From contig JAKSVQ010000001.1 of NCBI GenBank assembly GCA_024407855.1, forward strand, positions 1-64,000: a DNA stretch of 64,000 bases, in the 5' to 3' direction. Positions within the stretch are counted from its first letter, which is position 1. Each line of letters opens with the position of its first letter. Origin of the DNA: Mycoplasmoidaceae bacterium (GTDB taxonomy: Bacteria > Bacillota_I > Bacilli_A > Mycoplasmatales > Mycoplasmoidaceae). Position numbers and translations under genes: made by a program. The notes beneath the pieces are model-generated. The model ran no database searches, was not told where the DNA came from, and worked only from the letters and a program-made list of their open reading frames with translations. Of this stretch, positions 39,938-43,198 are shown piece by piece.

Positions 39938-40504
39938 ATGAAACTCGTCGTAGGGCTTGGTAACGTGGGCAAGCCATATTCAAATACCCGTCATAATATT
40001 GGTTTTATAGCTTTAGATGCAATTCTAAATGATTTAAATCTAAAGATAGAAAGCAATAGTTTTGATGGGGATTATGTGGTTGCAACCATCAATAACCAAA
40101 AGGTAATGTTTATTAAACCAACAACATTAATGAACTTATCTGGTAATTGTGTGGGTCCTGTTGCCAAGTTCTACAAGATCAAACCTGAAGACATTATTGT
40201 CATTCATGATGATCTTGACCTAGAACCAGGCAAATTCAGAGTTAGAACCTCTGGCTCAGCTGGTGGCCATAATGGAATCAAAGACATTATTGCTAAACTA
40301 GGTTCCGATAAGTTTGTTAGATTCAAGATTGGTATTGGTCATCCAAAACAAGCCACGGTCATTGACCATGTACTTGGCAAGATAACCAAGCAAGAAGCAC
40401 AAGCTATGCAACAACCAATTGCTAAAGCAGTCGAATTTGTTAAATTATGCTTATGTGCACCAATTAATATCGCAATTAGTAAAGTAAATCAAGGAAGTAA
40501 ATAG
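39938..40504 (+). CDS. pth: Peptidyl-tRNA hydrolase
   Basis: Releases tRNA from stalled peptidyl-tRNA. The protein is 188 residues. VGLGNVGKPYSNTRHNIGF (with the catalytic His), KPTTLMNLSG, HDDLDL and GSAGGHNGIKDI are all present. It is the first gene of a unit with the reductase genes; its stop is one base from the nrdD start. Confidence 0.96.
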   Translation: MKLVVGLGNVGKPYSNTRHNIGFIALDAILNDLNLKIESNSFDGDYVVATINNQKVMFIKPTTLMNLSGNCVGPVAKFYKIKPEDIIVIHDDLDLEPGKFRVRTSGSAGGHNGIKDIIAKLGSDKFVRFKIGIGHPKQATVIDHVLGKITKQEAQAMQQPIAKAVEFVKLCLCAPINIAISKVNQGSK

Positions 40505-40505
40505 T

Positions 40506-42449
40506 ATGAAAGTAATTAAAAGAGATGGACGTGAAGTCAAATTCAATTCAGCAAAGATACATGATGCTATTATTGCTGCTGCTGTAGCAAGTAACATTGC
40601 TTTAGCAGAAGGTGATTTAACTAAAGTATCTGATGAAGTAGTTAACCAAATTGAAAAAGCAGGTAAGGATGCCGTAGAAGTTGAAGAAATTCAAGATATG
40701 GTCGTTGCTACCTTAAGAAAATATGGTCATACACAACTAGCAAAGAAATATCAAGCTTACCGTGTTCAACGTAACAAAGTACGTGAGCGTAGTAGTAGAT
40801 TAATGAATACAATCTACAAGATTGGTATTGAAACCGATAGAGATAATGCTAACGTAGGAAACAACTTCTCAGCAAAACTACTAAGAATTGCTTCTGAATC
40901 TAATAAATGACACATGCTTCTAAAGCATTTGCCAAGAGATATGGCTACTCACCACGAAGTTGGTGACTACTATATCCACGACTTAGACAGTTACAACCTA
41001 ACAACTAACTGTCTACACTTACCTACTAGAAGATTACTAGAAAAAGGTTTTAACACTGGTTATGGAACAATTAACCCACCAACAACTATAGAAACTGCTG
41101 GAGCAATTTTATGTATTGCTTTACAAGCAAGCCAAAACGATATGTTTGGTGGTCAATCTCACCCTAACTTTGATAATGATATAGCTATTACTATACCTAA
41201 CACAAGAAGAAAAGTAATTGCTGACATTAAGGCTTCAGGTGGTAACTGAGAAAACAAAGAAGTTGTAGACAAAATCTTAAGAAGAAGAGTTTGCCAAGCA
41301 ATGCAAGGTGTTGTGTACAACCTTAACACTCTACACTCTCGTGCTGGTAGTCAAGTTCCATTTAGTTCAATTAACATTGGACTACCTGAAAATGAAAATG
41401 CAGCTCTTGTATGTGAATGTTTCCTACAAGAATATGAAAAAGGTTTAGGTTGCGGTGAACAACCAATCTTCCCTAACATTATCTTTAGAGTTAAAGAAGG
41501 TGTTAATAGAAATCCTAAAGATAAATACTTCTATCTATTTAGATTGGCTTGTAAAGTAGCAAGCAAGAGAATGAATCCAACATTCATGAATATTGATGCT
41601 ACATTCAATAAAGAATATTATGATAAAGGTATTATGCCAGCAACAATGGGTTGCCGTACATACCTTCTATCTGATATTAATGGTAAACCATGTGTCGAAG
41701 GACGTGGAAACATAGCTCCTTGTACAATGAACTTACCAAGATTAGCAATTAAAGCTAACAAGAACATTGAAGTATTCTTCAAGTCATTAGATGAAATGTG
41801 TGAAGAAGTAAGACTTCAATTAATGCATCGATATGAAACTTTAAAGAAACTTAAAGTTAAAGATATGCCATTTGTTTGTGGTGAAGGTTTAATTGTTGGA
41901 TCAGAAGGTTTAAAGAAAAATGATTCAATTGAACCAGTATTAAAACATGGTACATGAGGTATTGGTTTCATTGGTCTTGCTGAAACATTAAAACTATTAA
42001 TTGGAAAACACCACGGTGAAAGTAAAGATGCACAAGAATTAGGTTATTCAATTGTTAAACGTATCCGTGAAAACTGTGATAAGTTTAAAAAACAATATAA
42101 ATTAAACTTCGCTTGCTATGCAACACCTGCTGAAGGTTTAAGTGGTAAGTTCTTCCCACTAGATGAAAAAGAATTTGGAAAGATTCCTTGAGTAACAACT
42201 AAAGGATATTACACAAACTCATTCCACGTTCCAGTAGATTATCCAATTAGTGTGGCAGAAAAACTAGAAATTGAAGCACCATACCATGAATTATGTAACG
42301 GTGGACATATCTCTTATGTTGAATTTGATAGCTATCCAACACCAGATGATATCATGAGAGTAGTAATGTATGCTTATTCAAGAACAAACATTAACTATAT
42401 TGGTGTAAACTTCCACATTAGATACTGCTTAGATTGTAAATCAAGATAA
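40506..42449 (+). CDS. nrdD: Anaerobic (class III) ribonucleotide reductase large chain, lacking the glycyl-radical domain
   Basis: Reduces ribonucleotides to deoxyribonucleotides without oxygen. The chain is 647 residues. An ATP-cone (VIKRDGREVKFNSAKIHDAI) is at the N-terminus. The barrel carries C169 in YNLTTNCLHL and the candidate thiyl cysteine C383 in MGCRTYLL. The C-terminus reaches YIGVNFHIRYCLDC, the first cysteine pair (C641, C644) of the family's zinc ribbon, and then stops at TAA after KSR. The second CxxC and the RxxGYL radical segment, normally about 60 more residues, are missing here and lie in a separate gene at 42989. All TGA are Trp, so the end is not a reading artefact. It is followed at once by nrdG. 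Confidence 0.95.
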
Positions 42450-42450
42450 T

Positions 42451-42957
42451 ATGCAAATACGATTAGCAAGTATTCTAGAATCTAATGCTAATGGTCCTGG
42501 CTTAAGAAAAGTATTCTTCAGCCAAGGATGCAGCCATGGATGTCCAGATTGCTTTAATAAGCACACATGGGGCTTCAAAGGCGGCGCATTACTAGATTGT
42601 GATGAAGAAATAGCCAAAACACTTGATGCTTCTTACTTGGCTGGTGTAACCTTTAGTGGTGGTGATCCATTCGATCAACCAGAACCATTTGCTTATATGG
42701 CCAAGAAACTAAAAGAACACAATATTAATATTTGGTCTTACACAGGTTATACCTGAGAACAATTAAGAGAATTATCTAAGACCAATATTCATATCAAAGA
42801 ATTATTAGAGCATATTGATGTGTTGGTTGATGGTCCATTCATAAAAGAATTAATGGATGAGAACATTGAATGACGAGGTTCCAAGAACCAAAGAATCATT
42901 AAAGTACCTGAATCTCTAAAAGAGAATAAGGTAATAATTGATAAAAATTTCAAATAA
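42451..42957 (+). CDS. nrdG: Anaerobic ribonucleotide reductase activating protein (radical SAM)
   Basis: A radical-SAM enzyme that makes the glycyl radical on NrdD. The protein is 168 residues. The iron-sulfur cluster motif CSHGCPDC (C27, C31, C34; Cx3Cx2C) and the SAM-binding FSGGDPFDQ are intact. It sits between the two halves of NrdD, one base after the end of the large chain, so it should be made together with it. Confidence 0.95.
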
Positions 42958-42960
42958 ACA

Positions 42961-42979
42961 TATAATGAAATTATAGGAG
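42961..42979 (+). promoter_or_regulatory. -10 box and ribosome binding site of the glycyl-radical gene
   Basis: TATAAT at 42961-42966 and AGGAG at 42975-42979 lie in the 31-base gap before the ATG at 42989. The ribosome binding site shows independent translation; a promoter here would also allow separate transcription. Confidence 0.5.
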
Positions 42980-42988
42980 TCTTATATT

Positions 42989-43177
42989 ATGGGAAAAGTT
43001 ACATATTTACGTCCAGGTGAAACTAAATGTCCGGTTTGTGGATCAACTCATATTTGTGAAATCAGCCGTATTACTGGCTATCTATCATTTGATGAAAGAT
43101 TCTGTCAATCTAAAGTTGATGAAAGATCTCAAAGAGTCGATCACAACAACGAACACGACGCTAACTACGTAAAATAA
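42989..43177 (+). CDS. Stand-alone glycyl-radical and zinc-knuckle domain of NrdD
   Basis: A 62-residue protein that matches the C-terminal end of class III NrdD. CPVCG (C14, C17) is the second half of the zinc ribbon. ISRITGYL carries the predicted radical Gly30. RF, K, E, R and H then follow at the spacing seen in full-length NrdD proteins (family pattern RxTGYL...RFxxxKxxExxxRVxH). It has its own AGGAG site 9 bases before ATG and a strong terminator. It must pair with the large chain at 40506, which lacks exactly this part. It could be compared with GrcA, the free-standing glycyl-radical protein that repairs pyruvate formate-lyase, but here no full-length NrdD is seen in the window. The identity of the domain is clear; assembly in trans is inferred. 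Confidence 0.9.
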   Translation: MGKVTYLRPGETKCPVCGSTHICEISRITGYLSFDERFCQSKVDERSQRVDHNNEHDANYVK

Positions 43178-43198
43178 AAAGAGGCAATGCCTCTTTTT
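43176..43198. terminator. Bidirectional terminator
   Basis: 10-bp stem AAAAAGAGGC / GCCTCTTTTT, loop AAT. It serves the reductase unit and the convergent membrane-protein gene. Confidence 0.88.

Follow-up and report, generated by a model that had tools for sequence, protein, structure and literature searches.

How can an anaerobic ribonucleotide reductase (RNR), an enzyme that makes DNA precursors, be complete when the gene for its large chain, nrdD, stops short of the radical glycine? The question is raised by three adjoining genes in a 64,000-nucleotide stretch of DNA, hereafter the window (contig JAKSVQ010000001.1 of assembly GCA_024407855.1, positions 1 to 64,000), from a bacterium near Candidatus Hennigella equi in the Mycoplasmoidaceae; Ca. 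H. equi was named on the basis of metagenomes from horse faeces and is assigned to that family (PMC8957277; all papers are cited here for the parts of their text that were accessible). The original prediction, made from the letters of the window, was that NrdD is split at this locus and that its glycyl-radical segment is encoded as a separate, intact gene behind nrdG, the gene for the activase. Having followed up this prediction, we consider it very probable that the three genes specify a two-chain class III (anaerobic) ribonucleotide reductase together with its activase, the radical domain assembling in trans. The host, a wall-less gut bacterium, thus appears to build this oxygen-sensitive enzyme from two proteins, the fragile radical-bearing end having a small gene to itself. 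Many relatives show such a split, a second one probably arose independently in a different group of bacteria, and some phages carry the small part alone.

The large chain is cut inside its zinc ribbon

The genes of the window were read in code 4 and their products compared with protein families. The large chain matched the Pfam ATP-cone (74 bits) and positions 1-515 of Pfam NRDD (533 bits), and the 62-residue protein encoded behind nrdG took up the same family at positions 519-562, nearly without gap or overlap; the cut therefore lies inside the zinc ribbon. The small protein scored 31.9 bits against an NRDD cut-off of 26.2 (E 7.5e-8), with NRDD as its sole Pfam family at E up to 0.001, and TIGR02487 was divided between both chains at 534|535. 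Because the score beats the NRDD cut-off and TIGR02487 splits at this point, the resemblance of the small protein to the end of NrdD is, judged by these profiles, not a matter of chance. This comparison with NrdD families had been proposed as a check, and it bears out the claim that the 62-residue gene holds the second CxxC and the motif ISRITGYL. At the same E threshold the NrdD of the window matched NRDD and not PF02867, the class I/II barrel, and NrdG scored 146.9 bits against TIGR02491, whose cut-off is 126.1.

C169, C383 and N402, which we take to be the equivalents of C79, C290 and N311 of the phage T4 enzyme, are present in the NrdD of the window, and the radical glycine is absent. The chain ends in HIRYCLDCKSR, which includes C641 and C644, and just as predicted a true TAA follows this first CxxC of the ribbon after three further residues. 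All four ribbon cysteines are present, two per chain, namely C641 and C644 in NrdD and C14 and C17 in the small protein. An ordinary NrdD carries the glycyl-radical domain in the same chain as the barrel; here NrdD stops three residues past C644 and the glycine is found on the 62-residue chain, and the pair is therefore a two-chain variant, not an ordinary NrdD. In the P. copri NrdD, with whose RITGYL loop the small protein was aligned, the radical glycine is Gly711 (PMC11226230).

These residues are conserved on both chains. In an alignment of 40 shortened NrdDs (the window and 39 genomes; G055 and G068, whose chains are partial and lie at contig ends, entered neither the alignment nor the tree), C169, C383, N402, C641 and C644 were each found in 40/40 sequences, and C14, C17 and G30 were kept across 36 aligned small proteins; since both cysteine sets are conserved, both half-sites have survived though they lie on separate chains. 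Between the window and Ca. H. equi the ratio of non-synonymous to synonymous substitution rates (dN/dS) was 0.084 for the small gene (3 non-synonymous and 8 synonymous differences), as compared to 0.048 for nrdD, 0.069 for nrdG and 0.122 for pth.

The point of the break can be read from single-chain relatives. Two IMG/VR contigs, L173 (248 kb) and L175 (103 kb), encode uninterrupted NrdDs of the same subtype as that of the window, in which CKDCG, TYL or KYL, the second C..C and ISRVTGYLSLDERFG all stand in one frame. The conserved V-T-Y-L of the small protein corresponds to the segment behind the first ribbon knuckle of the single-chain NrdD, which places the break of the window three residues after C644. 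Elsewhere in the group with this kind of split, which we call type 1, the tail of NrdD at the break can be longer, reaching about 30 residues.

On re-reading, the coordinates and motifs originally given for nrdD, nrdG and the small gene were all correct (Table 1). The picture of three intact, tightly spaced genes closed by a terminator-like hairpin likewise stands, with the addition of a candidate promoter of its own before the small gene. This site had the top score among the 9 promoter-like sites of the stretch, a number not above chance (shuffle mean 13.4), and TTAACA-17-TATAAT occurs at the equivalent place in Ca. H. equi (L001).

Table 1. Positions in the window of the split reductase genes, their predicted motifs and neighbouring features
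Feature	Position	Strand	Remarks
pth, which from its sequence we take to be peptidyl-tRNA hydrolase	39938..40504	+	1 nt 5' of nrdD; same neighbouring gene in Ca. Hennigella equi
nrdD, shortened large chain, 647 aa	40506..42449	+	TAA stop; ATP-cone 1-90, NRDD barrel 113-645
Codons C641-C644, first CxxC of zinc ribbon	42426..42437	+	Extreme end of large chain
nrdG, radical-SAM activase, 168 aa	42451..42957	+	1 nt past nrdD; TIGR02491 above cut-off
Promoter-like site TTGATA-17-TATAAT	42938..42966	+	11/12 match; candidate own promoter of small gene
AGGAG, ribosome-binding site of small gene	42975..42979	+	From sequence
Small glycyl-radical subunit gene (predicted), 62 aa	42989..43177	+	31 nt past nrdG; NRDD positions 519-562
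Codons C14-C17 (CPVC), second half of zinc ribbon	43028..43039	+	In small gene
Codon G30, predicted radical glycine (ISRITGYL)	43076..43078	+	Aligned to RITGYL of P. copri NrdD
Terminator-like hairpin after small gene	43176..43198	+	Closes three-gene unit

The two pieces are inherited together across the family

A first scan, whose reach was close relatives, gave L001, L002 and L003. L001 belongs to Ca. H. equi, one named genome record with the identical gene order, in which the small protein is 95% and NrdD 96% identical to those of the window. We surveyed the 95 genomes of the family of Ca. H. equi and found an NRDD match in 47, comprising 41 with a shortened NrdD, five with a full-length NrdD alone (G004, G005, G023, G025 and G026) and one further genome, G042. 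The Pfam scan alone overlooked small genes, which were recovered by an alignment search with a profile of 36 small proteins. With this profile the small gene was present in 41/41 genomes bearing a shortened NrdD, plus G042, and in 0/48 family genomes without an NRDD match. The gene is divided, the division is conserved and its two pieces are inherited together.

The place of the small gene varies. Among the 41 genomes it follows nrdG by no more than about 300 nt in 16 (counted from coordinates) and by 1.2 to 2.6 kb in five; it stands between nrdD and nrdG in two (G021 and G022), ahead of nrdD in one (G036) and on a different contig from nrdD in 17. Some of these 17 may mask linkage, as G046, G048, G051, G055 and G062 keep less than 3 kb or no contig past nrdD; G064 is clearly unlinked, its genes being interior to contigs of 322 and 176 kb. 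The order nrdD-nrdG-small gene, which was to be looked for in other mollicutes, is that of Ca. H. equi. In G021 the nrdD stop overlaps the ribosome-binding site of the small gene, which lies in frame 12 nt on. This state may be a likeness of the first step, from which the small gene would have moved beyond nrdG and then away, if the direction of change is as we infer.

Type 1 forms a single clade with a support of 99 in the Shimodaira-Hasegawa-like approximate likelihood-ratio test (SH-aLRT), in a 96-row tree built without the tail by a quick method with no bootstrap, where rows L152, L153 and L038 and the outgroup are long and unsure and long branches join at L153 and L158. A protein-database search produced 428 clusters (E up to 0.001); among the matches listed (120 of 428 clusters) the proteins had 54-108 residues, and those that bore a name were called 'hypothetical protein' by NCBI or 'ribonucleoside-triphosphate reductase' by JGI. 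As side observations, the first scan also matched an Eggerthellaceae locus over residues 2-35 (L002) and an archaeal one over residues 7-20 (L003, chance-like), and the NrdD of an Eggerthellaceae metagenome-assembled genome (L004, 1153-3375) has one in-frame TAG after residue 554.

A second split at a different point

A class-wide scan of 395 genomes, 220 of which had a match, contained among the matches listed four loci with a different division, type 2. Here NrdD stops behind the entire ribbon, a gene for 53-67 residues bears FERIRR[IV]TGYL, and the Pfam match divides at 531|532. In the family of one type-2 locus (193 genomes), 97 genomes match, with an open frame of 52-78 residues in 76 and a longer one in 21 by our own count. 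All 17 split type-2 loci that were read (L120-L123, L132-L144) have the order nrdD-small-nrdG, including G680, for which the listing gave a long frame; 7/8 of the long-frame loci read are single-chain. A protein search for type 2 scored at least 7999 proteins, of which 120 were listed, with one JGI name only, and its matches may include contig-end fragments. The large chains of the 17 loci finish in a short new tail, in which a pair of cysteines (NCGC, SCEC or NCNC) is frequent. Such cysteine-pair tails recall the redox tails of class I/II reductases.

Type 2 stands in a different part of the NrdD tree from type 1, and single-chain relatives are nested within it, a nesting that hangs on short branches. 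The simplest reading would be two origins at different cut points, with either repeated splitting or re-fusion possible within type 2. A single ancient split with later re-fusions is formally admissible; the cut points differ, however.

Free-standing radical domains in phages and beside intact NrdD

Free-standing domains of this kind were also found in viral records. A 43-kb IMG/VR record (G787) encodes a 52-residue type-1 protein (L172, 2998-3156) that is 82% identical to that of the window, and no other NRDD match was found in this record. It reads best in code 4, a reverse transcriptase adjoins the small gene (PHROGs, E 1e-87), and by reading it has a variable/template-like repeat pair beside the small gene as well as primase- and polymerase-like genes. 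For type 2, the best 80 of 372 matches of a viral profile scan (L179-L258) comprised 74 short free-standing pieces (33-188 residues as called) without NrdD in the locus, 4 short ones with NrdD nearby and 2 long ones; the ranking favours free-standing pieces and includes several near copies, and 74/80 is no rate. When 38 of the longer records among the 74 were searched whole, the sole NRDD match was C-terminal in 38/38, at positions 530-562 and once 509-562, and above the curated cut-off in 36/38, in records that may be fragments. Named phages gave 15 and 11 record matches, several of them ordinary NrdD genes; in Eggerthella phage EL753P1, a complete named genome, nrdD stops after the ribbon and there is a separate radical-domain piece, interrupted in the record (L259, 2370-2581). 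We also noted two near-identical 188-residue phage proteins (L239 and L244) with an NrdD-type radical domain at the N-terminus and a further stretch behind it, and a viral-contig nrdD in two pieces with an intron-like break at the radical-cysteine motif (L174, 790-3168).

In bacterial genome G633 a 90-residue stand-alone NrdD-type glycyl-radical protein (L124, 2524-2796) occurs together with a full-length NrdD (L126), and is a candidate for the NrdD counterpart of GrcA. With this protein as the query, 3223 proteins were matched at E of 0.001 or less, and among the matches listed (120 of 3223) were names in Erysipelotrichaceae, Oscillospiraceae, Ruminococcus, Ruminiclostridium and others; a look-alike lies on phage contig L257. 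With slightly less than even confidence, we propose that a trans-exchangeable radical domain may extend across gut Bacillota and phages, which would be an obligate subunit in two lineages, a spare beside intact NrdD in others, and carried alone by phages that lack NrdD to sustain the host reductase during infection, a radical-cartridge economy in the supply of DNA precursors.

A probable two-chain enzyme and its rivals

In the two-chain reductase that we favour, NrdD contributes three elements besides one half of the ribbon, namely the ATP-cone, the barrel and the radical cysteine, C383. The remaining half comes, with G30, from the 62-residue protein. The chains would dock by jointly completing one Zn(Cys)4 ribbon, which would set the G30 loop beside C383; NrdG would then convert the glycine of the small chain to its radical form, from which the radical would be handed on to C383, catalysis proceeding as it does in an ordinary NrdD. 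A shared ribbon, a radical on G30 and a requirement for both chains are thus predicted. With less certainty, the small chain might also be replaceable once oxygen cleaves it.

Several observations weigh against this reading. The split copy is not always alone in its genome, since an extra full-length NrdD occurs in 3/41 type-1 genomes (G022, G034 and G068) and PF02867, the class I/II chain, in 2/42 genomes searched (G021 and, besides its full-length NrdD, G022), and G042 has the small gene with a full-length NrdD, a shortened one not being found there. No other RNR large chain was found in 37/41 type-1 genomes, many of which look like metagenome-assembled genomes and may be incomplete. Structure prediction of a read-through single chain gave its tail modest to low confidence, with ten-residue means of 45-70 at 551-610 and then 43 and 29. 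The isolated small protein gave no confident fold, which is weak evidence given 36 rows for 62 residues.

Nothing but the unusual structure speaks for decay, a frameshift or an assembly error, and this candidate was ruled out, with practically no probability left to it, because the split is found in 41/41 genomes with a shortened NrdD; moreover, another gene lies between the pieces, and the small gene has a ribosome-binding site, a terminator-like hairpin and the low dN/dS given above. The claim that the split is no decay is thereby upheld. The small protein might instead be a spare part kept alongside an intact enzyme, as GrcA is for pyruvate formate-lyase, which would suit the pairing in G633 and the three type-1 genomes with an extra full-length NrdD; we regard it as very improbable, since the adjoining NrdD has no radical glycine, the sole NRDD match of the sister genome G001 is a shortened NrdD, and no full-length NrdD was found in 38/41 type-1 genomes.

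As for why a two-chain reductase would arise, replacement after oxygen damage is a plausible, unproven reason. On this extension of our reading the small chain would be a disposable radical cartridge: oxygen cuts glycyl-radical chains at the glycine, so replacing the small chain would suffice. We give this a nearly even chance. In its favour, the small gene often has a promoter-like -10 of its own: TATAAT lies within 60 nt upstream of it in 19/39 loci, as compared to a shuffle mean of 6.95 (sd 2.3) with 0/500 shuffles as high, thinning from 43 to 39 loci being the sole correction for kinship. In eight loci (L058, L068, L071, L073, L164, L165, L168 and L170) the distance from TATAAT to the start codon is at most 18 nt, a spacing like that of leaderless messages. 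The cartridge would also be consistent with the small genes on different contigs in 17/41 genomes, with splits that differ in cut point and in place on the tree, with type-2 large chains that would end near the expected place of oxygen cleavage, and with phage records that hold the piece, NrdD not being found in them, like the spare part of pyruvate formate-lyase in phage T4 (PMC8683613). It sits less well with the 17 type-2 loci that were read, where the small gene is closely flanked by nrdD and nrdG, and with hosts that probably dwell in the gut and perhaps seldom meet oxygen. Alternatively, in a bacterium with a small genome, a stop and restart within the linker of the ribbon may have been fixed by neutral fission, the chains reassembling without benefit. 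G021 would represent its simplest state, and the single-chain type-2 relatives nested among split ones look as if split and fusion interconvert; two cut points, long conservation, co-inheritance even when unlinked and phage-borne free domains would be unexpected under drift alone, and we lean against this account while holding it a serious possibility.

Significance and relation to known systems

If the two-chain reading is right, RNR here seems to be put together from one chain for catalysis and another for the radical, which share a metal site. Such a natural system would allow radical installation, docking and allosteric control to be studied separately; in P. copri NrdD, dATP loosens the glycyl-radical domain (PMC11226230). 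Spare parts have been validated for pyruvate formate-lyase alone, other glycyl-radical enzymes having been suggested as possible (PMC8683613), and the genes described here make the idea testable for NrdD. They also lend a predicted function to many small bacterial and phage genes, the NCBI-named ones of which are mostly 'hypothetical'.

The novelty provisionally claimed for the split holds as far as the literature was searched. Topical searches, with preprints and most subscription papers outside their scope, listed no account of a split NrdD in cells or of a free-standing NrdD domain, and a split of this kind was not found in the accessible text of PMC11528403, PMC4390871, PMC3019208, PMC12288474 and PMC12338860. 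A large RNR phylogeny dropped sequences under 400 residues, a filter by which the small chain would be missed (PMC9531940). The split first described at this single locus is real, and it is not limited to it: it is clade-wide, a second split exists elsewhere, and pieces are phage-borne.

With the NrdDs of P. copri (PDB 8p23) and T4 (1h78) the system shares the ATP-cone, barrel, radical cysteine, NrdG, four ribbon cysteines and RITGYL loop, but here a separate 62-residue chain holds the radical loop together with one half of the ribbon. Phage nrdD genes with introns or breaks (PMC3653736; L174 in this work) resemble it in being in pieces, for which introns, inteins or an unknown process have been held responsible (PMC3653736); whereas L174 is broken at the radical-cysteine motif, the glycyl-radical segment here is a gene of its own and can be unlinked. 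NrdJa and NrdJb of Pseudomonas aeruginosa, both required in vivo (PMC4520616), are likewise an RNR cut into a catalytic and a smaller C-terminal chain. They belong, however, to class II and depend on B12, NrdJb serves in thiol exchange and not in glycyl-radical transfer, and the NrdD of the window has no PF02867 match. GrcA/YfiD and Y06I of phage T4, spare parts of pyruvate formate-lyase (PMC8683613), are likewise free-standing glycyl-radical domains that act in trans, as we propose here, and that also exist in a phage version. Unlike them, the domain described here is of the Pfam NRDD and not the PFL type, carries a zinc half-site and, the intact parent enzyme usually not being found, is in most hosts searched the sole copy and not a substitute for a damaged one.
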